Shown here: piece after piece, positions 26,491-55,584 of the stretch
Layout: each line of letters starts with the position of its first letter
Numbering within the stretch: the first letter of the stretch is position 1
NCBI GenBank assembly: GCA_905160935.1
Contig: CAJHZI010000478.1
Coordinates: 200,001-264,000, forward strand
DNA: 64,000 nt
Reading direction: 5' to 3'
DNA from: Enchytraeus crypticus
Taxonomy: Eukaryota > Annelida > Clitellata > Enchytraeida > Enchytraeidae
Notes under the pieces: generated by a model
The model's database searches: none
What the model was told of the DNA's origin: nothing
Seen by the model: only the letters and a program-made list of their open reading frames with translations
Program-made: the position numbers and the translations under genes

Positions 26491-27202
26491 ATGGCCCTGG
26501 CTAAAATATCTGAAAAGAAGGAAGCCGAATTCAGAGATTTCCTGCAGTTTATATTTCGACGCAGCAGTGTCGCCGTGTATCGACTCAATGAGTTTCTCCA
26601 CAAGGACTTTCCTTCATTCGCCCAGGCAGCCCAGAGAGCAGACGACATCATGGAATCCAAACCTCAGAAGAAGAAGAAGAAGAAGAACGCCAAACCAGCG
26701 CGGATATACAATCTCAAGATAATGAAGCAAATGGCGGACGAGATGCTGGAGATGGATTTGATTGAGGACTCACAGCGTCTCGTGGATTTTCTTGACATTT
26801 CCGGACGACTCAGATGCGCAAGTTTAATGGCGGGAAACCTCGTGAAGGGAGTGGAAAAACTGAAACTAGGGGACACCTCTTCCATCAACTACTTCCTCGC
26901 CCAGTGGAAGTACTTCACAAAGCTGACCACCGATTTCTCTGTTATGGAATTCACGGGGAAACTACCTGAGAGCTTGACGGAGGTGGAGAAGAAGTACTAC
27001 GCCTGGCCAGTGGCCGTCAGAACGGCTGGATACGCAGCGAGGCAGGTCCTCAGCCGCTCAGGCACCGTCCTGGGCATGCCCCTGCTTCCCCCGGACCCTT
27101 ATCCTTTTAGAATGAAGATGTATGGGCCGGAGTTTGTTTTGGCTGTGAAAACTGAGGATGAGAAGCGAGACCAGGATCCTGGAATGGCCTTGTTAAGCAA
27201 GG
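26491..27202 (+). CDS. Exon 1 of the unrecognised 287-residue gene
   Basis: 237 codons plus one base, leaving in phase 1 at a strong AAGG/GTAAGT donor. It encodes most of the protein, including KIMKQMADEMLEMDLIEDSQ and LPESLTEVEKKYYAWPVAVR. Confidence 0.8.
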
Positions 27203-34484: not shown

Positions 34485-35359
34485 TCACTTGTTACTAGCA
34501 TGCCCCTCTATGGCTATACTACAGCGTGCCTCTACGTCAGTCCACTGTCCATCATAATCTTCAGGTTTCAGGTCTGCAGGAGATCTGCGCTTTCTGTGGT
34601 AACACAAACAGCAGAGTAAGTGTCGTAATATAATATCGGTATACTACTACAACTCAGCATCATCATCATCAGCAGCAGCAGCATCATCATCATCGTCGTC
34701 GTTGTCATCAACATTATCATCATCATGATCATCATCACAATCATGATGATCATCATCATGATCATCATCCCATAGTAGCTAGGGTCGGGATATGAATAAA
34801 CCTTCTCCACACCCCTCTGTCCCACACTGTATCAACAATAATCTCCCAAAATATTTCAGCTACTACAGAAAAAAGGTTAACATTCTCTGCGCAATCCAGA
34901 CTTACTAATTCCTGCATAGTGCCTGTGCTGAAATTATAATACTATAATTTCTAAATAGGAGATGAAGATGTTTAAAAAGACAACTATCAACTGTATAGTT
35001 ATATTTATCAAGCCATGATAAATGAAACAAACTGCTGGAAACAAGCATCCTACTGTGTACTTACTGTTATATAATTTATATTCGGCGATGCAATCAAAAG
35101 ATATATTTAGTAAGATCTCCATCGACACGAGATTATCTTGAGTGGAAGAAATTCCTCTTAGCGTTCCCAAATTGCAAAGGTAATGGTGATTAAGGCCTTA
35201 GTTCAAGTTGCTATTTTATAACACTGCATTAATTTTCCAGTAAATAAGGGTGCTATAGAAGTCTAGTAAATTAAGGGTCAGATTTTTTATAAAAATAGAA
35301 CGAGACAGATATTGAGAAATAGATAAGAGAAATGGGTGTCCAAAGAGAGAGAGAGAAAG

Positions 35360-35401
<42 letters not shown>

Positions 35402-37422: not shown

Positions 37423-37484
<62 letters not shown>

Positions 37485-38001
37485 AGAGGGGAATAGAGAA
37501 ACAGTGAGAAATGAGAAGAAGGGTCAAGTGGAGAAAGGGTGCATAATATAAGTAAACTCAAAAATTAACAGTGTACCAGATTCTACTTCATAAAGAGCTC
37601 CATCTAATTTAAATTACGTACATAAATAATAACAGTATTTTGTAATCTATTATAGCTTCTAAACTTGTGTAGAATCAATTGCTCCTGCTATACGAGTCCG
37701 CATATAAGCAAGTAGGTGTATGAAAACTAAAACTAAACTTAAATTTTATCCTTATCATCATCAGCTTCCCTTAAATCCCAGCTTAACCAGGGTCGGAATA
37801 CAAATGGACTGATCCATTCGTTTAAGTTTTTTAGCAATTTCTGGAGCCTAGGCGCTGACCAACCGAATGCCCTTTCTGACGTTGGTTTGGATCTTGTTTT
37901 TATTTCGCCTTCTACAACATGTGCATATTTGCATGGTTGGTCTAATCATAAATTATATCATATATATATCTAAATCATAAATTATATCATATATATCTAT
38001 A

Positions 38002-38038
<37 letters not shown>

Positions 38039-39007
38039 TATACAGAGATATACTGAGATTGATACTGAGATTTTAAAGTATGATATAAAAATGTTACAGA
38101 ACTGGTCTAGGGATTGGCTAATGGAGTTCAATGCTGAGAAATGTAGAGTTATGCATATAGAGAATAATAATTTAGAAATTGAGTATACATTGAACAATAT
38201 AAAACTAAAATCCACAAACAGTGAGAGGGATTTAGGAGTCTTTGCGGATAGCTCTTTTAAATTAAGTGAAAATTGTAATAAAGTTGTAAAAAGTGCTAAT
38301 TGTGTATTAAGAATGACTAAAAGAACAATTACATGTAGAAATTAAGATATTGTGGTAAGGCTATATAAGGCTCTTGAACGGCCCAAACTTGAATACTGCG
38401 TTCAGGCTTGGTGCCCATATCTTAAGAAAGATATCGATAAATTAGAAAGGGTACAAGCCAGAGCAACAAGGCTGGTATTTGACTGTCAAAAACTTAGTTA
38501 TGAGAATAGATTAAAATTCGTAGGAATAACCCATTTAAGTGAGAGAAGAACTAGAGGAGATTTAATAGAAGTCTTTAAGATACTCAAAGGCTTCAGCAAA
38601 GTTAACCATAGTATTTGGTTTAATTTATCAAACAACAGAAACACAAGGGGACATATGTAAAAACTTAATAAATTTAGAAGTAGACTAGATTTAAGGAAAT
38701 TTTTCTTTAGTCAGAGAGTTATAAATGCTTGGAATAGTTTGCCAAGCGAAGTTGTGGAAGCAGAATCAGTGAATGCTGTTAAAAATAAATATGATAAACA
38801 TAAGAACATGTAAATTAGATGCTAATTGCATGTTCAGTGTTATACAGTACATAGGCTACGTACAAATTTCACATGTTGACATGAAGTCTATATGATTTGA
38901 TTTATATTAATTGGTTTTAGTTAAGAGCCTGACGAGTCTTAAACAAGCATATAATTGCTTCCTGACTCTGTAATGTTATGTTATATATTTCTGTATAATA
39001 GAGATGA

Positions 39008-39087
<80 letters not shown>

Positions 39088-41832
39088 TTCTACATCTTGA
39101 AAATCTCAAGTTAAAATGGAAGCAAAATGTTTTAAGATTTATTTTAGGATCTGAGATTTTTATAAGTTGTAAGAGAAATAAAAACACTCCGCAAATATTA
39201 TAGTAAGCAACGAACAAAACACCTTAATAAATATAATAGAACAGCAAAATGAGTAATCGAAATAACAAAATCAAGAATCACTAATCAATAATTATCAACA
39301 ATTATAACAATAGTTATCAATAGTTAAGTCAGAGAATGAAACAATGAACAGTCTGTATATTTGATGCTACAAGCTCATTAGAACACTATATAATTCACAA
39401 TACAGCCTCAAACGGACCAACGGTAGATAAAAAAACTATAACAATGCAACAACATGTTATGCTACAACTGCATAAACATTAGAGAAAGATTTTAAAATAT
39501 TTAACAAACACTGAAATATAAATGCGTTTCCTCTGTTCAAACTAGAAAGTATAAATTTTACGATAGAAACAGTGTCTTAACTTCAACGAGTCAAAAGCTG
39601 AAAACTTATTTGTAAATGTGGCTTTTAATTCAACACAGCTACTTAACTTGCCTCGATAGGGACTGTTCCAGAACAATTCCTCAGCTGATGGTGTTGATAA
39701 ACATACTACATATTTACTTAAATTTCAATAAAATTTTGCAATTGTATAATAATTAATGAGTAATAGGGAACATTATAATGTGTGTATATATATATATTAT
39801 ATATATATATATCTGGATCAAGTGAAAATGTCGGTAAGCTATTCGACCATGGATCAGTATATGCTGAGTTCAAATCCTGGACTCGCTCATCACTGATATC
39901 GCTTTTGAGTCAGTAAACTGATGTTAACATTAGCTGTAGCTTTTAGCGACATAACCATGTATGCATGCTTAGACATATCTTAATACAGTAGACACCACAG
40001 GGCGTTGTAACACTAGTAGATAATAATATTGGTCGATTAGTCCGGAGCAGCTTTGAATCACACTGCTCAAGAAATAGATCTATTCGTAAAAACTTTATTT
40101 ATTGTAAAATCTATACAATGATTAAATTGCTTTGATTAACTACATTAAGTTAATTCTCGTCAGTAACTGTTGATTGATACGGTAAAATTAAAACAATTTA
40201 AATGGCACTGATTAATAATATCAAAGGAACCTAGAAATAAATAAAAAATACATAGACAGTAATTAAGCAAAGAAGTTTGTAGCACATGAGGCAAGTCATA
40301 ATCAATTGTACAAATGTATGCATCAGACAACCTTCTATTGCATTCTGTCCTAGAGTAGAGACGTGGACAAATTAATAATAGAATATATATATACATATGA
40401 TAAGATGACAACAGGTGTCTCACCCAACTCCACGGTGCCTTCAGGCCTGTGATCTAGCCACACCTCTCCCTGAGACTTGGATCTCCTGTGGGACTTCGTC
40501 GTCACCAGCGGCTTCTACAAAAAATCAACACAGAATCTGTCGCTATTGACTTTCTTTAGAAGCAAGACAAGAAGTAACTATAAAAACCCTACACAAAAAA
40601 ATGTTGTGACAAGTTCATATTATGAAATTCCTTGTGAACAATTTATATGGCATTTAGTACTGAATTACATTATATCATTAAATTTCATTATAAAACAATG
40701 AAATTTAATTGAAATCTAAACTACTATTAACATTTATTTTAATTACAGTGCATGTAGAAAAGAGAAACACAAACAAATCAGATGATTAAAACGTCAAAGT
40801 AAATCTAGTTTAAGCAATCACTCACGGGCTTGAGGGGAGGAGGGGACCTGCCCCGGGGTCCTCTATTAAGCGGCCTAGCATACGACGGCTGAGCCCCCGC
40901 CCCCCTCACAGCACTGGCCACGCCTCCCGGCCTCCTCGACCCAGCCACAGCTGCCGCCGTCAACCCGTCGGCCTCCATCACCGCGGAGAGATCGGGTTCA
41001 GACTGAGCGGGGTAGATACGAGACAGCGCCCCCCCGGCGGACCGAGCCCCCGAGGCCAGGCCCCCTGGTGGAGCCCTCGGGCGGGTCTGGGGGGTCCTGG
41101 CCGTGTCCATGTCGCTGTCGTGGTGGTTGATGATGTTACGCAGGAGGTCGAGCTTGTGTTGCTTGGCGTTGAGCCGAGCCATGTTCTCCTGGTTGAGTCG
41201 ACGCGTTGCCTGCTCTATCTTGTGGTTGTATTGCTGCTCCGTGAGCACGAGCTTAGCCTTGTAATCCTGTCGCAGGCGGTCCTTGTCCATCTTCTCCTGC
41301 AGAATGTTCCATTCCTTCTCTCCTATCTGTGGGACAATCATACGATCAATCAATCAATCAATCAGAGAGTCAGTACTTGTTCATATTATCCTGCAGAAAG
41401 TTCCATTCCTTCTCTCCTATCTGTGGGACAAGCATCAATCAATCCACATTGTGAAGATTTTAACTTTCAAAATTTGTCCTTCAAGTGGAGTACCAGTTGA
41501 ACAGCCAGATGAATAGCAAGCTTGGATCATAAGCAGGAGACCATTTGCTCAAATCTAACAGGCCTATCTTTTACAGTTCCCTTGCGATACAGAAACAGCT
41601 TTTAAACTTACCTCTACATCTTTTAGTAGAAAAGAAAGACAAAATCATGTATAATAATAATAGATAATAACAATTAGAGTGCTACAGTCATCAATGATGA
41701 CAACATCGAGCACTATTATTAAGTCAAAATCAAGCCGGCGAGCAAAATGAATGGTCCAAAATGGTGCAAATTCCAAAATCCAGAAAATCAGTCCAAAGTA
41801 TAAAGTATATATATATACACACATATATATAT

Positions 41833-41875
<43 letters not shown>

Positions 41876-44682
41876 GTAGGATCAGACCTCTTTCTCGAGT
41901 TCCCGCCTCTCTTGCTCGTACAGAGAGTTCCTGGTCTGCAGCGCTTCGTTAGCTTTCTCCAGACTGGACAGTCGTCTCTTAGCCTTGTTCATCTCCTGCA
42001 CGCGAGAATTAGACTCCTCCTCCAGTTCAGCCAGGCGTCTACGCAGAGAAGAGTTCTCTGAGTCTATCTCTAGCATTCTGTTGCGTAGTCTCTCTTCTAC
42101 AATCAATCAATCAGTCAGTCAGTCAATCATTCAATCAATCAGCTCAGCCAGGAGTCTACGTAGAGAAGAGTTCTCTGAGTCCATCTCCAGCATTCTGTTG
42201 CGTAGTCTCTCTTCTGCAATCATTAAATCAATCAATCAGTCAATCATTCAATCAATCAGTCAATCAATCAATTAATCAATCAGATCATCCAGGCATCTAC
42301 GTAGAGAAGAGTTCTCTGATTCCATCTCCAGCATTCTGTTGCGTAGTCTCTCTTCTACAATCAATCAATCAGTCAATCAATCAATCAGTCAATCAATCAA
42401 TCAACAGCTCAGCCAGGCGTCTAGTTAAAGAAGAGTTCTCTGAGTCTATCTCTAGCATTCTGTTGCATAGTCTCTCTTCTACAATCAATCAATCAATCAA
42501 TCAATCAGTCAATCAATCAACCAATCAATCAATAACTCAGCTAATAAAGCAAAACACGCACTATAATTTCTAGAATTCTTGTTTAATAAATTTAAGAAAT
42601 CAGAAAGGATCTGTATCACAAAATAGTAGTACAAATACCAGGATCAGATAAATAACTTCAAATACAATTACATGTCAACAAAATTATATAAAAAATTTAG
42701 ACATCACTACAAAACTACCATGTACTGCATTTTTCCTCAAATAAGAAAAATATGCAGATAATAATAGTAGATAATAATAAACATCTAAATAAGGAAGATA
42801 AAGTATAACTGTAGACAAAACCTTTCTTGCTGAGATCAGCGGACAGAGTGGATCTTCGCATTTCACGATCTCTCAGAAAGTTCATCAGCAAACTGAGCGT
42901 TCTGTCATCACTGGGTTCTGTTAGCTAATCAATCAATCAATCAATCTATTAACTGAGCGTTCTATCATCACAGGATTCTGTTAGCTAATAAATCAATCAA
43001 TCAATCAATTAACTGAGCGTTCTATCATCACTGGATTCTGTTAGATAATCAATCAATCAATCCATCAATCAATCTATCTATCTATCAACCGATCAATCAC
43101 TCAATCCATCAATCTGTCAGTCAGTCCATAAATTTTTCAATCAATCAACTAGTCCATCAACCAGTCAATCAATAAATCAAGCAAGCAATCGGGTGACTGG
43201 TAAATGTAATCGATCAGTATATTAATCGATCAAAAAGCTACTCAGTCAGAAGAAATTACATCAGAAAACTTCACAAGCAGACATTACTGCGGCAAAGAAT
43301 TCATTTCATAAATCACCTAAGTCAATTAACTAAGAAATTAATAGCCAATAATAGTAAACCTAAAGTAAAAGTAAACTTAAATAAAACTAAGTTCAACATC
43401 TGCCTAGCTTTGGCAAGGCTACTGTTAATGTCACTAGGATTGAACCAATGATCTTGTGCTTAATCATTTATATGACCTTGAGCTTAACAAAGATATTCAG
43501 AGTCAGATATAACTGTGTGAAATTCTATCATATTTAGTTCTCCAATCAGAGATAATGTAAAAGCTGGTAAAGCTAATTCTAACGTCACGTTTCCTCACTG
43601 AAAGCCTTATCAGAGAAGGGCGAGCCCAGGATTAATGTAGTTTCCTGCTGTTCACTTAGGTTCCTGCAGAGGTTCAGTGGCTCAAGAATTTACTGCGAAT
43701 GGCAGACAAAGATACTCTACTGATATGGCTAGTAAGTTTTGTAAGCTCTATCTAGAGCTGCCCTCAGTTGTCTGCAAGTAGTCAAATTCAACCGTGCTAA
43801 ATGAACGTAGACACTTAAAACGACAGAGCAGGCGCTTACTATGAGAGAAGGAAAGGGAGGCCCCAGGCTGTACAGCATGGGTTCTGGTACATACACATCT
43901 GCCTTATCTGCTCATCAATCAATCAATCAATCAATCAATCATACAATAAATTAAAAGTCAGAAGACTATTTAAAATGTAACAGATAACAACAAGTAAACA
44001 ACAGTTATAGAGATTCCAGATTAAAGCACAAATTATCTTATGCCTAATTAAACATCAACAAGAAGACTATACATCAATAATTTGACGTTTCCTCAAGATG
44101 AGGAAAAGGACAATAAACTTTTAAATGCACTAAATTAAATACATTAAAATGTTATCATAGTCACTAATAGTAGTGCTATTATTACCAGCAGCTGAAGCAT
44201 GGGAAGCAGCAGCTGTGAGTGCTTCCTTATACTGCTGGTTGATCTTGCGCCGCCCTGGTGTCAAACCCACGTCAATAGCAGCGCCCTGAGGTCTTGCTAC
44301 CTGAACCTCTTGAGTCATCTCCGCAAACTTCATCACTTGCTGTATCCAACAATCAATCAATCAATCCATCAATCAATCAATCAATAGCAGCACCCTGAGG
44401 TCTTGCTACCTGAACCTCCTGAGTCATCTCAGCAAACTTCATCACTTGCTGTATCCAACAATCAATCATTCAATCAATCCATCAATCAATCAATCAATAG
44501 CAGCACCCTGAGGTCTTGCTACCTGAACCTCCTGAGTCATCTCAGCAAACTTCATCACTTGCTGTATCCAACAATCAATCATTCAATCAATCCATCAATC
44601 AATCAATCAATAGCAGCACCCTGAGGTCTTGCTACCTGAACCTCCTGAGTCATCTCAGCAAACTTCATCACTTGCTGTGTCC

Positions 44683-44722
<40 letters not shown>

Positions 44723-47135
44723 GTCAATCAATCAATCAATCAATAGCAGCGCCCTGAGGTCTGGCTACCTGAACCTCCTGAGTCATCTCAGCAAACTTCA
44801 TCACTTGCTGTATCCAACAATCAATCAATCAGTCAGTCAATCAATCAATCAGTCAGTCAATCAATTGGTCAATCAATCAGGCAATCAGATAATAATGCAA
44901 ACATGCACAGAAGAGAAGTCTCAAATACAAAAGATCAACAAGACACCACTAAATATAACAAAACTGTCAATATATTTTTTTAAAATACAAACTAGCATCC
45001 TGCTTGTCTCCACTCAACGCTAGGCACTAAATCAATCAATCAAACAATAAGAATATAACGTCCGGTTCCTCGCCATAAGGCAATGTCAGGGACGTCTCTT
45101 GCAGACTCAACACAAACAGGCGCCAAAGCACCACATGATGACGACGAGTAAACCGAGACAACAAGGGTATCCGTAAATATAATTATCCCTTAAGGTGTGG
45201 AAGTTACAATAGAATAGACTGAAGCCTCAGTGGGTCGAAACGTTCATAGAACTATTGCAAGAGAATATGCATCTATATCAATTATCATCATCATCATCAT
45301 CTTGCCTTAAATCCCAGTTTAACCATGTATATCAATATATATAACCGTGTGTATCAATAATAATTACACTTGGAAATATTCTACTTCCCTGATGTTTTTA
45401 AAACACAAAACACAATGTTAGTTCAGTCTGTTGCTATAAAAAAAGCAATTAGAAATCTTAAATATTATTAAATCTAATTAGAAGTTTAAAATATATGTAT
45501 TCAAAACAATGACTATAATATTCAGTAGAAATAATTAGCTTTTAATTTCTATTATTTCTACTAGAAGAGAATAGCTACCAGTAAAATTTAAAATTTCATA
45601 CATCATCATCATCATCATCATCTTCCCTTAAATCCCAATTTAAACAACATTGGGATAAGAATAGACTTTCAAGGTTTATCAATTCGTTTAAGTTTTTGTA
45701 GCAATTTCATACAACCAATTAATCAATTAATCAAATAATGACAAGTAACTTACAATAGTTTCGTCGTACTCGCTGGAAGCAGGATTGACGCAGACTATCA
45801 TACGCACCCTGCCCTCGCCGTCAAAATAATTCTTGAACAAGTGTGTCAGTCTAGAATCACGGTACGGCACCATCTGCTTGTGTATAATATATAAGAGAAC
45901 AAGGATTAATATTAAAATGTACATATTTAACATATAAAGCAGGCATACGTTTAAAACGATTTTTTAAGCGGAAACTTTAGCCATTACTAGCGTCTTAGAA
46001 AATTGGTGATGTTTTGATGATATAGTTTTGCTTATGCCATTGCAAATATTGCAATAATCTCTGGCAGATGTTAATATGATGTTGTCTTGTTGGCTTACAA
46101 TAAGGCAACTATGAGAGGTAATTAGAGGATTCCAACCACCATCTCAGCCATCTAGACCTCCAAGCTTGTACAGAGTTCTAATTTAAAGTAATATATTTAA
46201 AAGTTACAATTAATAAAATAACATCAGCACAGTGTTTTAGTATTCACAAATTTGATATAAAGCAGTTTAGGTTTCCGATTTCTCACATCATATATATGAA
46301 CAGTCTAAAAACACAACTTGTATGTCTTATGATCAATAAACTGAGGCGGACTGAACAAACCTGCTTTGGTTTGCTAGGATCAGACTTCTGGTTCTCTCTC
46401 AACATCTCTATACAGGTCCTTAAGACCATCAGAGACTGGTTTATACTGCCTGCAAAGCATAGGTATATACACAGTGTTTAGAGTCAATACAGACTTCAAT
46501 CTAAACTAACCATATAAATGAATATTTCATATATAATAGATTTTAAATGAACATCCAAATGATACAGGAAGAGGGAATCATGCTGAATCTCATAGAAAGG
46601 AAGAAAGCAAGACCCAGCGTAAGGTGGATGGATGAGTTGAAACTAGCAATGAGGTTGAAGCTCCTGCTCTCAAAGAGCCACCAATAGATAGAGTGGAAGA
46701 GTTTAGTCTACCTGATCACCAGAGGTTGTACAACTTGATGGTTCAAGTTGAAAAAGGTGAATTAAATTATAATAATAACACTTGAAAATTTGTTCTCATT
46801 CATCATCATCTTCCTTTAAATCCCAGTATAGCTAGGATCAGATTTTTTAGAGTCAGTTTTTTCTTAAGGCATTAAAATACAACCAAACAATCCCCCGTGT
46901 TATAGACCAACCATGCACTGCACGTGTTGTAAAAGGTGACATAAAAATAAGATGTCAATCATCTTCACTGATGAAAACAAATTTATTATACAATTTTTCT
47001 TCTTTGCAATCTTCTTCAGCAGTCTTCCACGACTTTAAACACTCTCAGTTAGCTGAAGCTAGGATAAGTACATGACCAACATTAATGCACTAATAGAGTC
47101 CAATGAAATCAAGTATTTTAAGACTAAACATAGAA

Positions 47136-47172
<37 letters not shown>

Positions 47173-50100
47173 TATGTTTTATTTTAAAAAAATACACTTA
47201 AATATGCACACACACTAGGCCGTCAGAGAGGTTTTCAAAAAACCTATCTAGTTGATAATATAACTACAGCACTATAAACTCAACCCACCTGCCTCTCTCA
47301 GTCTGTCCCCAGCATTACCAGTCCTAGTCAATCTCTCACTGCCAGCCAGGTCAACCAGCGCTAGCTGACTCACACAGATCTTTGTGGCGTCCTGTACCAA
47401 TACATTAATTAATCAATCAATCAGTCTATTCATCAATCACTCAGTCAATCAATCTCTCTGTTCATCAATCAATTAGTCAATCAATCAGTCTATTCATCAA
47501 TCACTCAGTCAATCAATCTCTCTGTTCATCAATCAATTAGTCAATCAATCAGTCTATTCATCAATCACTCAGTCAATCAATCTCTCTGTTCATCAATCAA
47601 TTAGTCAATCAATCAGTCTATTCATCAATCACTCAGTCAATCAAACTCTCTGTTCATCAATCAATTAGTCAATCAATCAGTCTATTCATCAATCAATCTC
47701 TCTGTTCATCAATCAATTAGTCAATAAATCAGTCTATTCATCAATCACTCAGTCAATCAATCTCTCTGTTCATCAATCAGTCAATCAATCAATCTATTCA
47801 TCAATCAATCAGTAGAGATGTACCGGATGCTGGTTCCGGTTTGACCAGATTCTGGCATTTCTTGCAAATCTGGTTCCAAAAGATTTTGACAAGTCCAGCC
47901 GGATATGTTACCGAATTTGGCAATCATTTTGTATATAAAAGGTAATCAATTTATAATTCAAAATTAGCTTCAAATTTACCTCAAAGAAGAGGAACATATG
48001 ACAAAGAGAGATGGATATTAACTGATACGATATGACAATAAGCTGATTGACATAAAACCAGTTTGAGATTATGCAGAGTGAGAGAGCCCTCGAACGATAA
48101 AAAAGCATGAATGATGAGCTAGGGACTGATTTTCTGGATTTTGGAATTTGCACCGTTGTTGAACCTTCATTTCACTCACTGGCATGATTTTGTCTCTATA
48201 CTGCGCTCGATGTCGTCATTGATGATTAGCACTATAATTGTTGTCATGAACTGTTTTTAATTGTAGCCTTTGAGGGCATGCATTAGAGCCTTCGGGCCTG
48301 TTTGTCAGTTTTCACGTCATTCTATGTGTACGGTGTCATTGTGATTTTCGTGAAGAAAAAAACATCTATCTATCTATGTTATGTTAATGAAATAATGCTT
48401 AGTATAAGAGCCTGTTACCATAATATTGTCATTGATGATTGTAGCACTCTAATTGTTGTAATGCTATGTTAAGTTAGGGAAATAAAGGAGTTCTTTGTGC
48501 CTGTTACCTGCAAGACTTCCTCTCCCAATGGATCCAGTGGAGCCTGGACTACACGGATACAGAACACGCTGTGACTACGTGATGATTCTGTGTTCAACGC
48601 TGTGTGTGCCACCTTACGTCTCTTCTGTCCTGTACACATACACACAGATAAAACACGCTGTTACTACATGAACAGTGTTCACCTTACGTCTCTTCTGTCC
48701 TGTACACATAAACACACATAAAACACGCTGTTACTACGTGAACAGTGTTCACCTTACGTCTCTTCTGTCCTGTACACATAAACACACATAAAACACGCTG
48801 TTACTACGTGAACAGTGTGCACCTTACGTCTCTTCTGTCCTCTACACATAAACACACATAAAACACGCTGTTACTACGTGAACAGTGTTCAAGTTGATAT
48901 TCTATGACAATGACTGACCGAAACGAGAAAATTATTTAGAGCAAGTCTTTATCATAATTATTATTTAGTAATATTTTATTAAATGTATTAACACTTTACA
49001 AGATTTATTCTAACTTTTATACTATTTAAATGAAATTACAAAGAGCTTACACTGATCATAAGCTGAAGCAGTAGTAGAGCAAAACACCATTTCTGTATGA
49101 ATTGCCATTTCTATTTAACGCAAGTTTCCACATTCTAGAAATGATTGTTCAAAGGAAACTATGCAATGCAATGATCCTACATATAAATTATAACGAGAAA
49201 ACTAGCTAATAGTTTAAAGCGATAGAATTATAGATTATACAGTAGATAAGGAATGACCAGCTAACCTTTGACAAACATATCGTAGGCGTCCTCGGGTGAT
49301 TTAGCCTCCATCTCTACCACCCCACTGACATACATGTTATGTTCACTATCCTCCCGCAGTATCTTAGAGGTGGGGGCTCTGTGGCAATCAATCAATCAAT
49401 CAGTCATTAGAAGATAGTTCTGTGTCAATCACAATCGATCAATCAGTCATTAGAAGAGAGGTCTGTGGCAATCAATCAATCAATCATCAGAAGAGAGCTC
49501 AGTGTCAATCACAATCAATCAGTCATCAGATAAGAGCTCTGTGGCAAACAATCAATCAATCAGTCATCAGACAAGAGCTCTATGGCAATCACAATCAATC
49601 AATCAATCATCAGAAGAGAGCTCTGTGGCAATTAATCAATCAGTCATCAGACTAGAGCTCTGTGGCAATCACAATCAATCAATCAATCATCAGAAGAAAG
49701 CTCTGTAGCAATCAATCAATAAGTGATCAGACTAGAGCTCTGTGGCAATCACAGTCAATCAATCAATCATCAGAAGAGAGCTCTGTAGCAATCAATCAAT
49801 CAGTCATCAGACAAGAGCTCTGTGGCAATCATAATCAATCAGTCAATCATCAGAAGAGAGCTCAGTGTCAATCACAATCAATCATCAGAGGAGCTCTGTG
49901 TCAATCACAATCAATTAATCAATCAATCAGTCATCAGAAGAGAGTTGTGTGTCAATAAAGCAATCAATCAATCATCACGAGAGAGTTGTGTGTCAATCAT
50001 AATCAATCAATCAATCAATCATCAGAAGAGATCTCTGTGGCAATAATCAATTAATCAGTCAATCCTCAGGAGAGATCTGTGTATTAGTAAATCACAATCA

Positions 50101-53100
50101 TTAGAGGAGAGTTGTAAATCACAATCAATCAATCATTAGAAGAGAGCTGTGAATCAATCAATCAATCAGTCAGTCAATCATAAGGGCGAGAGCTGAGCAT
50201 TAGTAAATCGCAATCAATCAATAATTAGAAGAGAGCTGTGAAACAATCAATAGTGAATCAGTGCTGTGAATCAGTCCATCACAATCAATCAGCTAATCAT
50301 TAGCAGCGATGCTAAACCTAGATCGAATGATCTACTGCCTCAGCCCAGTACAGGCAGGTCATGGAAGCAGAAGATGACGAAAAAGCCAGTAAAGATTCTG
50401 AAGAAATAGTCTTACATTACATAAGAGAAACGAAGGAAAGAGTCACAAAAGTCTGGAATTTGTGATATGACCAATTGTTGATTTATGGAAACAGTAATTT
50501 ATAAGCAGGGATGGACTAGTAATGCAACTTCTCTAGTAGATCATAGATTTATCTTGGTACTAACTTGTATCGAGTGATGAGCGCATAGATATATAAACAG
50601 TACTAACTTGTAACCAGTGATTAGATCATAGATATATAAACAGTACTAACTTGTAACCAGTGATTAGATCATAGACATATAAACAGTACTAACTTGTAAC
50701 CAGTGATTAGATCATAGATATATAAACAGTACTAACTTGTAGCCGGTGATGGGGTCATACTGTAGCTCTTCCAGCAGATCGTAGATGTAGTTGTTGTATA
50801 TCTCAACGTACGACACAAACACTGCATAGTTGTTGTCCTCATCTATATCATTCACGCTGTACGTCTCTCTAACTCTGGATAATCTACCGCTACCTCCCTC
50901 CCTCCTGAAGTAGAAAACAACAACACGGAGTCTTACACTAATATAATAATAATAATCTCTCTTAGTGCACTGCCTACTGGCAGGTCCATGGTAAATAACG
51001 CCTCCACTCTTCTCCGTCTTCCGCCTTCATCTTCATTTCCACATATGAGTGGGTCTTTAAATCATCTAATAATAGTAATAATAATAATAATAATAATAAC
51101 AACAATTAGAGTGCTACAGTCATCAATGACAACAGCGAGCACTATTGAGTCAAAGTCAAGCCGGGGCGCAACTACATGACTCCTGAAGTAGAAAACAACA
51201 CAGAGCTGTACACTGATCCATTTCAATGTGTTGATCCATTTGGCTGGAGTCAGTGGCGATGTCGGTAAGATACTCGATCGCGGATCAGTATGTGCGGGGT
51301 TCAAATCCTGGGCTCGCCCATCACTAACATCACTTTAGAGTGAGGAAACTGACGTTAACATTAGGTTTACCAGCTCTTTGACCAGAGTCTCACATATCCT
51401 ATATCTAGCGTCCATGCAGTATCCAAAAAACATAAAACAACTGTGAAATAGAAGAGAACGATCAATTAGTGCGATTGCATTATTATTCATCTATAATAAT
51501 AATAGTAAAGGTTTAAAGTCCGTTTCCTCATACAAGGATGATGTCAGGGATGTCCCCCATCACATTTCACTACAAATAGTAATTATAATTAATAGTATTA
51601 GAATTCTTTATTATAATATATGAATATACATGCATATATGAAGGAATCTCAATCATTAGCTCAATAGAATCATTACTTCGTAGAAAATTTATTGTAGAAT
51701 ACTATTTGTACAAAAGTAGTGATTAATGAAAGTGGTGTAATATGTATACACAAATTAACTTAGAAAACTAATGTCGTAATACCCTGGCGCTGGCGTCTTT
51801 GGTGTGGCAGCAGAACTACCAAACTTAGGCATTATATCTCTCCTCTGCCTCTCTAACATAGCATCGGCTTCTGTCTGCACTTCAAACCCGTTCATCTTGT
51901 CAGGTTTAAACACCTGCATCAATCAATCAATCAATCAACAATCAATTTACTTCATCAGCTTGATTAGCACTAAAACTCATTTTTCCTACCTGGCTTAACA
52001 GCATCAATTAATCATTAATATCAATCAATCAATGTACATCATCAATTTGATTAGCAGTCAAAGTTGTTCATACCATCTGGCTTAAACACTGGCATCAATC
52101 AATCATAGTAGTAATAGTGAGAGCTTAACATCTGGTTCATCATACAAGGATGATGTAAGGGATGTCCACATATCACAGGTCACTACAAGTCGATTCATAT
52201 AGATGATTCAAAAAAGTAGTAGAGAGAGAGAAAAACAGGTCCTACATGGTGCCGGTCCTGTGATAGAAAAACAGTCAGGCAAGATAATACAAATCTATGG
52301 CGGAAAGAGATGTGAAAAAAGTTTCAAATAGTAGTTTCCCAACATCAGTTTATCTGAGATTCAAAGGAAGATGATGATGAATAACTACATAATAAAAACT
52401 CAAACACCTAATGCTCTCGTTTCATCACATTTAATCTTCGCCTGGCAGCGAATACAGGTTGATGAGCTTACGTATTTCTTAGCCTGCAGGTCGTTGATGC
52501 TGTTGAAGATAACATCCAGACATCTCGGCAGAACACCCTGATCCTGAGGTGAGCCAGTCATAGTGTAGGTCTTACCCGAGTTAGTTACTCCATAGGCAAA
52601 TAGTAGAGCTATCATAAATCAATCGATCAATCAATCAATAGATTAAACCAATACATTTGCAGTCAGAAACAAATCAAAAAGATTTAATATGGTATGGGAC
52701 AGAAAGGAGTGGAGAAGGTTCATTCATATCCCGACCCTAGTTCAACTGGGATTAAAGTGAAGATGATGGTGATGATTTACAGTCAGAAATATCAACAGTA
52801 CACTGCGGTTCTGTATTAACACTATCTTAGATATAGATCTTGACGGAGTAAGCCGCTTGATAAGTAAAAGCTCTGTCACTAAAACTCAGTAGATAAAATA
52901 ATACACCATGTTCCGTACATAAAGTCTGACATCAGCGAATATGTCGTCATAACTATATTGTAAAACTTGAATTAAAGTGCCAAGATTATTATCTCAGATA
53001 ATGTCCAGTAAAATGGAAAAATCTGACAAATTTTAAAATCACCTGTACATTGTACAAGCCTGATATTTTACACGTATCTGCGACTCTGGAGACTCATTTA

Positions 53101-55584
53101 AATCTAGGATTAATCAAGATTTAATTTTCTTCACTTGTCCTTTTATTTAAAGCCTAAAGATATTCTCATGCATCTAACACATTGGGACAAAATATTTACA
53201 CATCAAAAAAAGGTTATTACCATTTTTTCCACTAAGAACATCTTCCACGAGCGGAAGAGCAATGTGATCAAAGACGGCTTTCTGCGACGTGCCGTCATCA
53301 AACACTCTCTGAAATGTGTTCTGTGTCTACAGCAAACAAAACAATCACACCACAATCATATCATTATATACTCATCATCATCATCTTCTCTTAAATCCCA
53401 GTTTAACAAGGGTTGGGATACGAATAGACTTTCTATCCATTCGTTTACATTTTTGTAGCAATTTCTGGAGCCTAGGCGCTCACCAACCGAATGCCCTTTC
53501 TGATGTTGGTGACACAACATTATACACTACTGATAGTTAATGTAACATCGAAGACAGTTATAAAACAATAACTAATTATTTCTAGTTTAAGAAATGCTTT
53601 TTTCTTAACCACAAACCAGGCCAAGGACCTGGTTTGCTACTGCTAGTAATGCAGAGTCATTAGTATAGTGTAATGTTCTATATATAATGTAATACAGTTC
53701 TTAACGTAATTGTATTATTTCATGTAATTGAATATGATGCAACATGAGAGACTACATAAGTGGAGATCATGATCATGTTTCTACATGCATCTCTGTTCAT
53801 TGTTAACATACAGTTCTCTCTCCCTCTCTTTCATTGTTGGTCTGATCATTTCAGTTTCCGTTATCTGCAGAACGGAGATATAAATGATCAGAGCAACAAT
53901 GAACAGAGACAGATGAAGGTACATGACCATGACCGCCCAGGCTTGGAACAGGCACGACACATGAAGAAGAATTTAATGCAGTATGTAGTGTATTTGCATA
54001 AAATTCTTGTAAATCATGTAAATTCATTAATTTTATTCATGAAGAAGAATGTCGTGCATCTATACTGCATTAAGATAGTTATCTAAAATTCAACGTCAAA
54101 CTAGTACCGACGCATTAATTAGTTCTGTAATGTCATTAAATCAAAACTTCCACAAAACAAATTAGGCCACAGCTTTAATTCATAAAAATCTTGAGTAATA
54201 GGATAAACAAAACAGATCATACCTCTTTCAAGGGATTTCCATTCCTCAAAGCGACTGCAGACTGTCGAACAGCAAAAATAACATCAAATTTATCTGATAA
54301 CCTGCCAACAACATCCCATTTATGGTATAACATACAACTAAACTTAGATACGTTCATGATATGTAAACGGTAGAATACATAAGCTTAGATATGCATACTT
54401 ACAAAACATACAGGATTTTAATTTATAATGACCTATCACTCATGACACAAAATTTGAATATAAGATCCATCTACATGAATATTATGTAAAATCTGATCCT
54501 TTAATATTCTGACACTATCATAGAATGCTAAACTCATAGATAATAAATAATTAATTCTCACAGATAATAAATTAAAAAAAAAAATTAAACACGCATTATA
54601 ATGAAATGATCAACTGTGTTGATATCTATCACTTTTTAATAGCACATGTTAAATCCGTTAGGCAATTTAGTTCATTTTCAGTATAACCAATCCAGTGAAT
54701 GTCAGAGATTTAACTCTAGGATATGCGCGGCTGGGATTCGATCCCACGAGGGTTCAATTCACCTAAGTATCTGTCATTTAAAACTTCATGACGTTACCCC
54801 TACTCTATTAAGACATTCAAATTACTTCAATAATCACAATAAAGATTAGAGCAAAACTCTCGAGCACCTCAGGAGGGCTGACTATGATAGAAGTAGGTCC
54901 TGATAGTTTGACACAAGAGCCCAGGTTCTGATCTTCCAATGGTCGTATCCTGCAGAATACCTACCAGCACATAGCACCACATACTAATACATAGAATATA
55001 TATTTGTTAAAAAATCGGAATGGTCATTGATTAAAGAGATTAAATATTAAAAGATGTCCATGGATCATTTCATTTAAAAGGACTAAATATAGAGACGAGT
55101 TAAAGCTAAGTTTAGCATCAGTTGCCTGTCTTAACAACATGCCAGCAAATGGAGACAGGACTGGATTTGAACCATGCACGCACTGACAGACAGTCTGACA
55201 ACTTGAAGACAAATCTGCGGTTCGACCCATTGTATATACAAGAAACAACTTGATAGCTCGCCAGATATACTTATTTAAAATTCTCGGACTATATAATAAA
55301 GATGTATCATGCAATTAAGTAAGAGTTACCGGTACAGCAGAATGCTATCTAGCTGACTACCACATTGTTGTTGAAAGCCAGTTATGAAAATCCATTGCTA
55401 GTCGAAATAGAAATACTCTGTCTGTTTTTTATAAATGAAAATTGAGAAGAGAAAATTAAACTAGAAATCAGCATATGAGTCCTATATGTACTTATCAATA
55501 CAAATACAATCAACACAAACTTCCACGGGGTCTGTCTGTCTGAACGACGGCTTCCTGGGAGTTTTTCTCGGAGTCTTTGAGCTT
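34485..55584 (-). CDS. KIF23: Kinesin-6 motor KIF23/MKLP1 (centralspindlin), 21 exons, first exon not found
   Basis: Plus-end-directed mitotic kinesin. With RACGAP1 it forms centralspindlin, which bundles midzone microtubules and drives cytokinesis and midbody assembly (family knowledge). Seen: 21 minus-strand exons with GT-AG borders and matching phases, joining to about 914 codons against about 960 in human. In order: basic N-tail ([11 protein letters not shown]), motor start CRIRPL, P-loop GVTNSGKT, the long loop-6 insert of this family, [15 protein letters not shown], switch I NTESSRSH, switch [26 protein letters not shown], neck [17 protein letters not shown], coiled coil, low-complexity linker, the RRSKS motif before WLDH, and a C-tail with RKRRS and [12 protein letters not shown]. 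The P-loop has Asn where human KIF23 has Gly, as in KIF20-type kinesins. Introns carry many SINE copies. The exon with the start ATG should lie above 55.6 kb and was not found. The C-terminus is either a TGA at 34485-34487 or one more exon. Confidence 0.95.
34489..34593 (-). CDS. KIF23: KIF23 exon 21: C-terminal RKRRS and WTDVEARC
   Basis: Phase 2 in, acceptor CCACAG. It encodes [20 protein letters not shown], then [14 protein letters not shown], matching the vertebrate RKRRSS...EWTDVETRCSVA tail with its nuclear localisation-like basic cluster. The end is ambiguous: AACAAG TGA gives a stop at 34485-34487, but AA/GTGAGT is also a near-perfect donor for one more exon. Confidence 0.9.
34660..34770. 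repeat. (ATC)n/(GAT)n tract
   Basis: Imperfect ATC triplets, probably the tail of the inverted family D fragment at 34775-34830. Confidence 0.7.
35340..35578. repeat. GA-rich microsatellite beside kinesin exon 20
   Basis: GAGAGA, GATAGA and GGTAGA tracts in the intron after exon 20. On the transcribed strand it is a long pyrimidine run. Confidence 0.9.
35641..35726 (-). CDS. KIF23: KIF23 exon 20: [19 protein letters not shown]
   Basis: Phase 0 in, 2 out, acceptor TACAG, donor GACAG/GTGCTG. It matches the GDIYKT...GGG...V.FTDIE block. If the intron is retained, the frame ends two codons later at TGA (35635-35637), giving a shorter C-terminus. Confidence 0.92.
36463..36625 (+). mobile_element. 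Dispersed repeat family D copy
   Basis: Family D runs from (ATC)n through TTAAATCCCAGTTTAACCAG, GGGATACGAATAGAC, TTTTTGTAGCAATTTCTGGA and GCCTAGGCGCTCACC. Other copies: 37755-37950, 45603-45710 and 53370-53520 (plus), 35845-35975, 52690-52775 and 33040-33095 (minus). The fixed (ATC)n end looks like a SINE tail. Confidence 0.6.
36719..36772. repeat. 20-bp duplication TATAGCCAGCACTATGACAC
   Basis: Two tandem copies plus a partial third, just downstream of kinesin exon 19 in the transcribed direction. Confidence 0.6.
36795..36934 (-). CDS. KIF23: KIF23 exon 19: [15 protein letters not shown]
   Basis: Phase 1 in, 0 out, acceptor TGACAG, donor AAG/GTTCTC. It encodes [20 protein letters not shown], then [20 protein letters not shown], matching the KYMLTHQELASDGEI block of the vertebrate C-terminal domain. 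It follows a 3.5-kb intron filled with repeats and a LINE fragment. Confidence 0.94.
36940..37130. repeat. (AATC)n/(AGTC)n degenerate array upstream of exon 19 acceptor
   Basis: On the minus strand this is (GATT)n ending at GCTGACAG, the exon 19 acceptor. No coding duplication here. Confidence 0.8.
37405..37480. repeat. (GA)n microsatellite
   Basis: Simple GA run with GATC/GATA at its left end. Confidence 0.9.
37755..37950 (+). mobile_element. Dispersed repeat family D copy, longest
   Basis: The fullest copy in the window, continuing past GCCTAGGCGCTGACCAACCG into GCCTTCTACAACATGTGCAT. Confidence 0.6.
37975..38040. repeat. (TA)n microsatellite next to the LINE fragment
   Basis: (TA)n preceded by two copies of ATAAATTATATCATATATAT. 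Confidence 0.85.
38050..38815 (+). mobile_element. Jockey/CR1-like LINE reverse-transcriptase C-terminal fragment
   Basis: Two frames, broken by a stop at 38343-38345, give [20 protein letters not shown], then [54 protein letters not shown] and [20 protein letters not shown]. This is the thumb and C-terminal end of a jockey-superfamily polymerase. The element is 5'-truncated, has at least two nonsense changes and lies in a kinesin intron on the strand opposite to the gene. Confidence 0.88.
39013..39083. repeat. (TA)n microsatellite
   Basis: About 35 TA units in the large kinesin intron. Confidence 0.95.
39819..39940 (+). mobile_element. SINE family A copy in a kinesin intron
   Basis: GAGTTCAAATCCTGGACTCG and a decayed body; more diverged than the others. 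Confidence 0.6.
40424..40514 (-). CDS. KIF23: KIF23 exon 18: RRSKS regulatory motif
   Basis: Phase 0 in, 1 out, acceptor TTGTAG, donor TTGG/GTGAGA. It encodes [20 protein letters not shown], then [10 protein letters not shown]. In human MKLP1 the matching RRSRS holds the Aurora B site and the 14-3-3 site that control centralspindlin clustering. Both serines and the basic residues are kept here. Confidence 0.93.
40826..41326 (-). CDS. KIF23: KIF23 exon 17: end of coiled coil plus low-complexity linker
   Basis: 167 codons, phase 0 to 0, acceptor CCACAG, donor CCC/GTGAGT. The first about 75 residues are coiled coil ([20 protein letters not shown] and on, ending [14 protein letters not shown]). 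The rest is a disordered Pro/Ala/Gly/Arg linker with SRRPGG and [13 protein letters not shown]. The linker is far more GC-rich than its surroundings. One short copy of the exon start lies at 41392-41420. Confidence 0.93.
41345..41440 (-). repeat. Copy of the kinesin exon 17 start (acceptor plus 29 nt)
   Basis: On the minus strand CCCACAG/ATAGGAGAGAAGGAATGGAA is repeated with its acceptor at 41420, 94 bp upstream of the real one at 41326, after a short (GATT)n stretch. The copy diverges after CTGCAG. Confidence 0.9.
41665..41805 (+). mobile_element. Dispersed repeat family B copy in a kinesin intron
   Basis: It carries AATTAGAGTGCTACAGTCAT, AAGCCGGCGAGCAAAATGAA and GGTGCAAATTCCAAAATCCA, and is followed by (TA)n. 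Confidence 0.6.
41888..42096 (-). CDS. KIF23: KIF23 exon 16: coiled coil
   Basis: Phase 1 in, 0 out, acceptor TTGTAG, donor GAG/GTCTGA. It encodes 70 residues of heptad-rich Glu/Arg/Leu sequence ([20 protein letters not shown] and on). This is the dimerising stalk. Three truncated copies of its 5' part sit upstream (42140-42478). Confidence 0.93.
42140..42540 (-). repeat. Three truncated copies of the kinesin exon 16 start
   Basis: Copies with pseudo-acceptors at 42213, 42354 and 42478 (117-141 bp apart) repeat the first about 75 nt of exon 16 (AGAGAGACTACGCAACAGAA onward). Each is preceded by (GATT)n and TGCAG or TGTAG. Each diverges into GATTGATT, which brings a TGA in frame in copy 1. Confidence 0.95.
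42822..42924 (-). CDS. KIF23: KIF23 exon 15: start of the stalk
   Basis: Phase 0 in, 1 out, acceptor GATTAG, donor AAAG/GTTTTG. It encodes [20 protein letters not shown] and [14 protein letters not shown], equivalent to the DEQTLPRLIEALEKR region. The acceptor is set by phase; a closer AACAG would be out of frame. Two copies of its first about 30 nt lie upstream. Confidence 0.9.
42945..43060 (-). repeat. Two truncated copies of the kinesin exon 15 start
   Basis: 60-bp units at 42984 and 43044 repeat CTAACAGAAYCC...GATGATAGAACGCTCAGT and then stop at TAA. The nearer copy keeps TTAG before CTAACAG; the further one has TTAT. Confidence 0.92.
43562..43636 (-). mobile_element. SINE family A fragment in a kinesin intron
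   Basis: Only the AACGTCACGTTTCCTCACTG to GGGCGAGCCCAGGATT part remains. Confidence 0.55.
43840..43907 (-). CDS. KIF23: KIF23 exon 14: [16 protein letters not shown]
   Basis: Phase 1 in, 0 out, donor ATA/GTAAGC. Two acceptors nine bases apart (43907 and 43898) keep the same frame, so residues DKA may be optional. The encoded [17 protein letters not shown] aligns with the EPLV...FPPLPS segment of vertebrate KIF23. Confidence 0.85.
44186..44339 (-). CDS. KIF23: KIF23 exon 13: motor end and neck
   Basis: Phase 0 in, 1 out, acceptor ATACAG, donor GCTG/GTAATA. It encodes [20 protein letters not shown], then GLTPGRRK and an Ala-rich stretch. In vertebrates this neck region precedes the RACGAP1-binding part. 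The first 69 nt are repeated four times in the upstream intron (44383-44807). Confidence 0.96.
44383..44880 (-). repeat. Four copies of the kinesin exon 13 start
   Basis: Pseudo-acceptors at 44448, 44561, 44674 and 44807 each carry ATACAG (one has ACACAG) plus 69 nt of coding sequence for [20 protein letters not shown] and AID, then (GATT)n with an immediate TGA. Spacing is 109, 113, 113 and 133 bp from the real exon outward. Confidence 0.97.
45754..45873 (-). CDS. KIF23: KIF23 exon 12: [19 protein letters not shown]
   Basis: 40 codons, phase 0 to 0, acceptor AAGCAG, donor ATT/GTAAGT. It encodes [20 protein letters not shown], then [19 protein letters not shown], close to vertebrate KIF23. 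Confidence 0.97.
46361..46449 (-). CDS. KIF23: KIF23 exon 11: [16 protein letters not shown]
   Basis: Phase 1 in, 0 out, acceptor TTGCAG, donor CAG/GTTTGT. The alpha-4 helix motif [11 protein letters not shown] is intact and followed by a short variable loop. Confidence 0.95.
47289..47391 (-). CDS. KIF23: KIF23 exon 10: switch II (LVDLAGSER)
   Basis: Phase 0 in, 1 out, acceptor GTACAG, donor GCAG/GTGGGT. It encodes [20 protein letters not shown] and [11 protein letters not shown], the most conserved kinesin block. A 64-bp tandem array starts right next to its acceptor. Confidence 0.97.
47398..47815. repeat. 64-bp tandem array, about 6 units, beside exon 10
   Basis: The unit combines TCAATCAATCAGTCTATTCA, TCAATCACTCAGTCAATCAA and TCTCTCTGTTCATCAATCAA plus TTAG. 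It abuts the acceptor of exon 10 but contains no coding copy. Confidence 0.93.
48110..48246 (-). mobile_element. Dispersed repeat family B copy in a kinesin intron
   Basis: Inverted copy (TGGATTTTGGAATTTGCACC, then TCGATGTCGTCATTGATGAT). A 40-bp fragment of the same family follows at 48425-48465. Confidence 0.6.
48508..48629 (-). CDS. KIF23: KIF23 exon 9: switch I (NTESSRSHS)
   Basis: Phase 1 in, 0 out, acceptor GTACAG, donor CAG/GTAACA. It carries [20 protein letters not shown], then [13 protein letters not shown]. Thr replaces the usual Arg of the NRESSRSH motif. Three shortened copies of its start lie upstream. Confidence 0.95.
48640..48890 (-). repeat. Three shortened copies of the kinesin exon 9 start
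   Basis: 70-bp units with pseudo-acceptors at 48699, 48769 and 48839 (GTACAG, in the last GTAGAG) repeat GACAGAAGAGACGTAAGGTG, then skip to AACACTGTTCACGTAGTAAC and AGCGTGTT, a compressed version of the first about 75 nt of exon 9. Confidence 0.95.
49266..49378 (-). CDS. KIF23: KIF23 exon 8: [17 protein letters not shown]
   Basis: Phase 2 in, 1 out, acceptor GCCACAG, donor AAAG/GTTAGC. It encodes the ILRED...NMYVSG strand and the [12 protein letters not shown] helix. Its acceptor context is reiterated many times upstream (49386-50300). Confidence 0.95.
49386..50300 (-). repeat. Reiterated exon 8 acceptor context, 15 or more units
   Basis: On the minus strand each 35-50-bp unit reads (GATT)n, GCCACAG/AGCTCTCTTCTGATGA. 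The real exon 8 border is GCCACAG/AGCCCCCACCTCTAAG, so only the acceptor and about the first 11 nt are shared. Units vary (TGACACTGAGCTC, TGACACACAACTC). Confidence 0.85.
50541..50745 (-). repeat. Four extra copies of the kinesin exon 7 donor
   Basis: 43-bp units. The real border is TACAA/GTTAGT at 50737, with copies at 50694, 50651, 50608 and 50565. Each holds the last about 16 nt of the exon (ATCACTGGTTACAA) and 25 nt of intron. Three copies keep a perfect GTTAGTAC donor; the outermost is diverged (CGATACAAG). Confidence 0.95.
50737..50904 (-). CDS. KIF23: KIF23 exon 7: [19 protein letters not shown]
   Basis: Phase 2 in, 2 out, acceptor CTTCAG, donor TACAA/GTTAGT. It covers the end of the insert and the highly conserved [16 protein letters not shown] core. 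The last 16 nt and the donor are repeated four more times in the following intron (see 50541-50745). Confidence 0.96.
50960..51065 (-). mobile_element. LINE 3' tail, inverted copy in a kinesin intron
   Basis: On the minus strand it reads through CCCACTCATATGTGGAAATG, a GGCGTTATTTACCATGGACC-type stretch and GCCAGTAGGCAGTGCACTAA, the same tail as at 63.8 kb. Short. Confidence 0.7.
51100..51168 (+). mobile_element. Dispersed repeat family B fragment
   Basis: AACAATTAGAGTGCTACAGT followed by GACAACAGCGAGCACTATTG; truncated at AAGCCGGGGC. Confidence 0.55.
51242..51372 (+). mobile_element. SINE family A copy in a kinesin intron
   Basis: A close match to consensus: GGCTGGAGTCAGTGGCGATG, GGATCAGTATGTGCGGGGTT and GAGTGAGGAAACTGACGTTA. 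Confidence 0.7.
51783..51913 (-). CDS. KIF23: KIF23 exon 6: loop-6 insert, first half
   Basis: Phase 0 in, 2 out, acceptor ATGCAG, donor GG/GTATTA. It encodes [20 protein letters not shown] and [14 protein letters not shown]. This is the kinesin-6-specific insertion in the motor, recognisable by the MLERQRR stretch. Confidence 0.93.
52472..52608 (-). CDS. KIF23: KIF23 exon 5: P-loop exon
   Basis: Phase 1 in, 0 out, acceptor GATAG, donor TAC/GTAAGC. It carries [19 protein letters not shown], the nucleotide-binding P-loop, then [18 protein letters not shown]. The Asn in the P-loop replaces the Gly of human KIF23. Confidence 0.97.
53221..53326 (-). CDS. KIF23: KIF23 exon 4: motor core up to the P-loop strand
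   Basis: Phase 0 in, 1 out, acceptor CTGTAG, donor ATG/GTAATA. It encodes [20 protein letters not shown] followed by [15 protein letters not shown], which matches the vertebrate segment before LLFTYG. Confidence 0.95.
53370..53520 (+). mobile_element. Dispersed repeat family D copy in a kinesin intron
   Basis: (ATC)n then TTAAATCCCAGTTTAACAAG to CCGAATGCCCTTTCTGATGT. Confidence 0.6.
53765..54075. repeat. Nested foldback (inverted-repeat) structure
   Basis: Inner arms GTCTGATCATTTCAGTTTCC / GGAGATATAAATGATCAGAG and ATCTCTGTTCATTGTT / AACAATGAACAGAGACAGAT face each other around CTGCAG. A second outer pair, GCACGACACATGAAGAAGAA with TTTAATGCAGTATGTAG and ATGTCGTGCATCTATACTGC, lies to the right. 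It could be a MITE or local inverted duplication; no terminal duplication was confirmed. Confidence 0.55.
54223..54261 (-). CDS. KIF23: KIF23 exon 3: 39-nt micro-exon
   Basis: 13 codons, [13 protein letters not shown], phase 0 to 0. The acceptor GACAG follows a good pyrimidine tract and the donor is GAG/GTATGA. It aligns with the RNGDYKE part of vertebrate KIF23. The start was chosen by phase: a second AG six bases downstream would break the frame. Confidence 0.8.
54570..54850 (+). mobile_element. Dispersed repeat family F, copy 1
   Basis: About 250 bp shared with 60890-61140: AACACGCATTATAATGAAAT, GCGCGGCTGGGATTCGATCC, ACGAGGGTTCAATTCACCT and ACTTCATGACGTTACCCCTA. Tandem TTCGA/TTCAA sites recall a tRNA T-arm. 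The copy ends about 20 bp from the donor of kinesin exon 2. Confidence 0.65.
54868..54960 (-). CDS. KIF23: KIF23 exon 2: first motor strand (CRIRPL)
   Basis: 31 codons, phase 0 to 0, acceptor GGTAG, donor GAG/GTGCTC. It begins [11 protein letters not shown], the conserved kinesin beta-1 segment, and ends VSPPE. A diverged tRNA-like repeat ends just upstream on the plus strand. Confidence 0.93.
55521..55584 (-). CDS. KIF23: KIF23 exon 1 of those seen: basic N-terminal tail
   Basis: Acceptor TCTCAG, entered in phase 2, leaving in phase 0 at donor GAA/GTTTGT. It encodes [20 protein letters not shown] and one more residue, matching the KTPRKP stretch that precedes the motor core in vertebrate KIF23. 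The initiator Met must come from an upstream exon. Confidence 0.85.

Follow-up and report, generated by a model that had tools for sequence, protein, structure and literature searches.

Tandemly copied exon edges in a KIF23 gene of the annelid Enchytraeus crypticus have the structure of amphioxus 'mirage' minisatellites

A KIF23 (MKLP1-type kinesin) gene on the minus strand of a 64,000-nucleotide (nt) stretch of the Enchytraeus crypticus genome, here called the window, carries tandem copies of its own exon edges within its introns. The copies take coding sequence across the boundary at seven edges: the acceptors of exons d, g, k, m, n and o and the donor of exon e. These repeats are real, and they are of the same structure as the minisatellites described as 'mirages' in amphioxus rather than a new category. 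We favor, with a probability of roughly 0.7, the reading that they are mirage-type minisatellites, ordinary minisatellites which by chance extend across exon edges and whose decoy splice sites are ignored in splicing. A second feature, a strand-locked (GATT)n tract before many acceptors, is independent of the edge arrays.

Results

Exon edges copied in KIF23

The edges of exons a-o were searched by BLAST against the whole window, and the direct copies that we accepted have E values of 1e-4 to 1e-45 (Table 1). The initial annotation of this DNA had claimed six acceptor arrays and one donor array (its exons 7, 8, 9, 13, 15, 16 and 17 are our e, f, g, k, m, n and o); the arrays of g, k, m, n and o and of the e donor stand, with 20-74 coding nt by BLAST, and exon f falls away because only its acceptor is copied. 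The decoy positions given there as 44448, 42213 and 48699 are exact, the donor copy at 50694 was found 43 nt on from the true exon end, and a diverged copy at the exon d acceptor had been overlooked. Each family has its own unit and is not part of one dispersed element, as had been proposed, although the genome-wide search behind this statement used unit k only. That the complete exon is the innermost copy is dictated by geometry and carries no evidential weight.

Exon f is preceded by a minisatellite of 16.7 units of 43 nt, as measured with Tandem Repeats Finder (TRF); seven of these units retain CACAGAG exactly. Past AGC, the unit resembles the exon no better than shuffled exon sequence does (P=0.54), and BLAST of the exon f edges against the window gave no match with at least 5 coding nt. 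The edges of exons p-s, also searched against the window, have no copies. We excluded nine weak matches, all of them in a GATT-rich array near 47450-47811: five to n with 8 coding nt and four to r with 5 coding nt.

Over 69 coding nt, three of the exon k decoys match one another exactly and the fourth differs by 2; each shows 4 differences from the exon, and near-identity of this kind would be expected of homogenized arrays. Beside the true g acceptor, the intron end at 48642-48671 resembles the interior of exon g at 48551-48582, with a local score of 35 against a maximum of 23 in 5000 shuffles. Apparently the g array has overwritten the end of this intron, and exon-derived sequence may now be splice-site context before exon g.

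Table 1. Features of the KIF23 gene, in window coordinates
Feature	Position	Strand	Copies	Coding nt copied, identity	First decoy bases	True exon limit	Remarks
KIF23 (MKLP1-type kinesin) gene	34489..55586	minus					19 coding exons (a-s) placed, plus one weakly supported N-terminal exon
(GATT)n abutting exon r acceptor	35727..35768	minus					no edge copies
Exon o acceptor	41327..41444	minus	1	48 nt, 89%	41420	start 41326	
Exon n acceptor array	42097..42533	minus	3	74 nt, 90-91%	42213, 42354, 42478	start 42096	
Exon m acceptor array	42925..43072	minus	2	34 nt, 90-93%	42984, 43044	start 42924	43044 without AG
Exon k acceptor array	44340..44880	minus	4	68 nt, 94-95%	44448, 44561, 44674, 44807	start 44339	
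Exon g acceptor array	48630..48891	minus	3	20-26 nt, 94-97%	48699, 48769, 48839	start 48629	without GATT
Exon f minisatellite	49379..50082	minus					acceptor and GATT repeated; nothing coding copied past AGC
Exon e donor array	50537..50736	minus	3	23 nt, 77-92%		end 50737	43-nt unit, exon end with GT, downstream of true end; without GATT
Exon d acceptor	51914..52105	minus	1, diverged	32 nt, 77%	52089	start 51913	copy at 52105-52058; AG off by one base

Identity of the gene and a paralogue free of arrays

Joined through their splice sites, the 15 exons a-o give an open frame without a stop, and the product matches PF00225 with an E value of 2.9e-93. Its named protein matches are mostly animal KIF23, those of Owenia and Capitella at 58-59% identity; a further match is protein P0001, at 68% identity to the window KIF23, and the nearest solved structure is the kinesin chain 5x3e_A (ZEN-4). 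The C-terminal exons p-s were added by tblastn with P0001 (E 1e-7 to 1e-16), and the same query gave a weak match (E 0.14) to a putative N-terminal exon at 55586-55518. The COX1 of the assembly, 95% identical to Lumbriculus and Enchytraeidae entries, indicates an annelid, as do the relatives of KIF23.

Genome searches, run on a 524-Mb assembly of 802 contigs, located a KIF23-like paralogue (L054, G000:C429:746900-756899) that is 50-82% identical per exon. The limits of exons e-k agree between the two genes as far as tblastn shows, so the arrays appear to be younger than the introns. In the paralogue tblastn placed 14 exon ends, some of which are not true splice sites, and we found an edge copy at none of them.

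Decoy splice sites

The rows of decoy splice sites that had been predicted are borne out. The acceptor copies mostly keep their AG: it stands in register in 12 of the 14 KIF23 decoy acceptors and is retained in 60 of 66 copies over the 85 acceptors sampled (see below). All 14 KIF23 decoys are followed by a stop after 11-28 codons; behind the k and n decoys this stop is the TGA of the GATT tract itself, a repeat that holds TGA in all frames. Since splicing to a decoy would bring in a stop prematurely, the arrays would persist only where decoys are ignored, and we infer that splicing does ignore them. Outside k, the decoys differ from their exons by 24 nonsynonymous and 14 synonymous changes.

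Edge copies elsewhere and the background rate

Exon edges of other loci in the genome were tested for nearby copies in the same way. The sample comprised 112 edges of each kind: KIF23 (19), 73 exon segments that match PF00225 in 20 further kinesin loci, and 20 kinase exons, the latter being the first 20 rows of a kinase listing with an open frame of up to 150 amino acids. By BLAST, copies lie at 25/112 acceptors and 9/112 donors (p=0.005), made up of 6/19 and 1/19 in KIF23, 15/73 and 6/73 in the kinesin loci, and 4/20 and 2/20 among the kinase exons. When two doubtful kinase acceptors (L037 and L039) are left out, the acceptor count is 23/112 (p=0.012 against donors). Copies in the kinesin loci include at least 12 coding nt and reach copy numbers of more than ten. 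Edge arrays are not unique to KIF23, as both the kinesin loci and the kinase exons show.

Several matches were dropped from these counts. From the count over the 73 segments we left out L029 (inverted matches and one direct match at 71%), segment 2 of L021 (inverted), segment 3 of L030 (copy 4.6 kb off) and segment 1 of L014, where the donor-side copy lies upstream of the exon (if it is counted, donors become 7/73); from the kinase exons we removed interior matches of L045 and inverted matches of L039. The array of L031 extends into its coding match. One edge array is common to paralogous kinesin exons in L019 (C405) and L021 (C617), where 2 and 13 offsets match, and by eye the intron end at these loci also resembles the exon.

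We then judged splice sites and random points by equal criteria. Predicted sites were needed here, and matches without an acceptable splice site (23/73 kinesin acceptors and 19/73 donors; 4/20 and 3/20 for kinases) contributed none; the coding-side filter took out one further KIF23 acceptor and one kinesin donor. Acceptors were overrun at 19/84 (KIF23 5/18, kinesins 11/50, kinases 3/16), donors at 9/89 (p=0.04 for acceptors against donors), random noncoding points at 105/996 and random AG points at 83/946. Acceptors exceed random points (p=0.002), also with KIF23 left out (14/66, p=0.014), and donors do not (p=1.0). Donor edges are overrun at the noncoding background rate, and acceptors about twofold above it. 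Tandem repeats of period at least 12 (TRF) make up 11.2% of the noncoding DNA of the kinesin loci, counted more than 150 nt from exon matches, which is a comparable background; they overlap 11/73 kinesin acceptors and 8/73 donors, and 4/19 and 1/19 in KIF23.

A strand-locked (GATT)n tract at acceptors

The window holds 61 (GATT)n runs of at least 11 nt in the sense (minus) orientation and none in antisense, 55 of them within 41300-52700. Of the 15 acceptors of exons a-o, 9 have a tract in the 60 nt ahead of them, whereas no tract follows any of the 15 donors at this distance; it is therefore also found at acceptors without copies. The same holds more widely: sense tracts precede 21/85 acceptors at this distance (KIF23 10/19, kinesin 9/50, kinase 2/16) and antisense tracts 0/85, and after donors there are 0/90 sense and 2/90 antisense. 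Random windows of the kinesin loci have 65 sense and 3 antisense tracts in 3327. These 20 loci contain 92 sense and 12 antisense runs, with sense above antisense in 15 of the 17 loci that have any (p=0.002). The paralogue on C429 has GATT before its acceptors j and k and near h.

A count over the genome that uses no annotation points the same way, with CAG 5380 times at 2-20 nt after (GATT)5 and 2303 times before it, a 2.3-fold difference. Around the same tract CTG is symmetric (6360 and 6204), a count that serves only as a symmetry control and is not evidence by itself, being inflated by GACT variants of the tract; all four counts include overlapping starts inside one tract.

The tract is free of AG and GT, and offers TTGAT every 4 nt. 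The branch-point consensus is YTNAY, which TTGAT fits, and (GATT)n probably derives from branch-point sequence or is tolerated in that role. Over the 85 acceptors, tract and edge arrays occur independently, and (GATT)n is a second feature in its own right. A bolder proposal is that the tract is a working 3′ splice-site module (strand-locked, AG-free, with serial TTGAT branch points, and present at many acceptors), and that in some genes whole modules of tract, AG and exon start have been copied in tandem to give near-equivalent 3′ splice sites of which the last is used. We put this forward tentatively, as an idea with rather less than even odds.

Other features

On the plus strand of the window, an open reading frame of 266 amino acids at 26416-27213 has a strong score with a kinesin-trained coding measure and no Pfam match. 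Frames at 37974-38660, also on the plus strand, presumably resemble the reverse transcriptase of non-LTR (non-long terminal repeat) retrotransposons; the part at 37974-38342 has no Pfam match. TRF reports a 25-bp satellite at 29264-30080 (32.7 copies, 98% alike) and further tandem arrays at 382-944, 7798-8149, 10526-11046 and 12558-12903. Partial COX1-like matches with stops on contigs C361, C424, C796, C373 and C166 of G000 are probably nuclear copies of mitochondrial DNA.

Discussion

How the arrays may have arisen

Minisatellites make up about 11% of noncoding DNA near the sampled genes. In such a genome, tandem duplication by slippage or unequal exchange would sometimes catch a unit that spans an exon boundary and multiply it into the intron, and the spliceosome would go on using the copy that is joined to the whole exon and to its partner splice site. 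Turnover of the arrays would be in line with the 2 and 13 matching offsets in the paralogous L019 and L021 exons, with the identical k units and with our finding no copies in the KIF23 paralogue, and drift with the 24 nonsynonymous to 14 synonymous changes outside k.

Several observations weigh against this reading. The acceptor excess is larger than background minisatellites alone explain, and in the window itself the contrast is stronger still: random points are overrun at 12/224, and KIF23 acceptors, at 5/18, are in fivefold excess (p=0.005). This local background is below that of the kinesin loci, which tempers our confidence slightly and makes a process linked to splicing somewhat more likely. 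The nonsynonymous share of decoy differences outside k is 63%, below the 74-85% expected without constraint, and the k copies have 0 nonsynonymous and 4 synonymous differences each, a pattern that a selected role could likewise give. The counts have weaknesses of their own, as the sampled edges were predicted from domain matches with a KIF23-derived weight matrix and some are misplaced; the three kinase acceptors with copies in the equal-criteria test (L037, L039 and L050) look doubtful, the first two of which are also among the four found by BLAST; and random points within one locus are not independent.

Acceptor edges could instead be multiplied by a process tied to the 3′ splice site, such as breakage and repair linked to transcription or RNA. 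The excess of acceptors over random points, and over donors in both counts, is what it predicts. However, donor arrays are present at the background rate, the acceptor excess is only about twofold in samples that are small and partly misannotated, and the units hold both intron and exon, so that spliced RNA was not the template. We regard such a process as unlikely to be the main cause.

The initial annotation had suggested that (GATT)n drives slippage or break-induced copying and drags the exon edge along. Some observations within KIF23 favor this: of its five acceptor arrays that are positive by equal criteria, four (k, m, n and o) have GATT before the acceptor, and the k junction falls on an exonic ATTGA in register with the tract, as the m junction possibly does on TGAT. 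Over 85 acceptors, however, edge copies occur at 6/21 with GATT and 13/64 without it (Fisher p=0.55), which removes the tract as a general trigger; outside KIF23 it stands at only 2 of 14 acceptors with copies, the g and e arrays lack it, and the paralogue has the tract but no arrays that we found. Junction microhomology fails as a general mechanism too, with the register clear at one of five GATT arrays (k) and possible at a second (m). As an account of the arrays, the suggestion is improbable.

A dispersed transposable element was also rejected. Of 167 candidates from a genome-wide search with unit k, 40 were scored, and the matches listed, leaving aside C385 and a paralogous exon present in single copy (78%), are GATT stretches; in addition there are about five alignments at 70-72% in DNA rich in GATT, which were not inspected.

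If the decoy acceptors were functional, alternative or poison splicing would tune KIF23 and other genes through nonsense-mediated decay. The kept AGs, the early stop behind every KIF23 decoy and the purely synonymous divergence of the k copies would suit such a role, but the n, m, o and d copies alter amino acids, no arrays were found in the paralogue, and donor arrays stand at background, so we think a regulatory function very unlikely. An assembly artefact is hardly credible: tandem arrays are a classic assembly problem, but these copies vary in sequence and in tract length, and the arrays are shorter than 1 kb. The Enchytraeus crypticus genome paper describes PacBio and Illumina data assembled into 910 gapless scaffolds of 525.2 Mb.

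If about a fifth of acceptors truly have near-identical decoys upstream, this laboratory worm would offer very many natural experiments on 3′ splice-site choice and on the possible origin of new introns from boundary duplications; the most useful view of the arrays is as a natural test bed for the former. Mirages, so far a curiosity of lancelets, may then be a widespread class, to which is added a microsatellite with strand bias that is linked to 3′ splice sites.

Comparison with known systems

The initial annotation knew of no described gene with repeated exon edges, a view overturned by amphioxus. Such minisatellites, or mirages, are described there in Adh, the globins BflGb6 and BflGb9 and troponin C, with similar imperfect repeats in PGBD5. 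They are tandem repeats, 10 to about 160 bp in size, that lie over an intron/exon boundary, at the acceptor or the donor, and many of the copies retain AG or GT; normal splicing is reported or suggested to be maintained. The KIF23 units likewise cross the boundary with coding sequence (at d, e, g, k, m, n and o, not at f) and mostly keep their splice signals. The differences are that the host is an annelid and not a cephalochordate, which is a matter of host range and not of structure; that a single gene has seven affected edges, and about one in five of the acceptors tested is affected; and that a quarter of the tested acceptors have a sense-strand (GATT)n. Splicing, moreover, is deduced here from DNA.

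Two other systems are related in part. In duplicated human genes, internal tandem repeats that cross exon-intron boundaries, with minisatellite units of about 30 bp on average, are reported to alter or create introns in primate paralogues (PMC2812944), whereas the limits of the worm exons e-k match those of the paralogue. Intron gain by tandem duplication likewise involves a boundary-crossing duplication with branch site, pyrimidine tract and acceptor; the worm, in contrast, has decoys inside old introns, and over the exons compared (e-k) no new intron was shown. In a literature search of limited reach we recognized no report of annelid boundary repeats or of GATT tracts before acceptors. What the worm adds to the published accounts that we found is the phylum, a frequency that can be compared with background, and, at acceptors, the strand-locked GATT tract.

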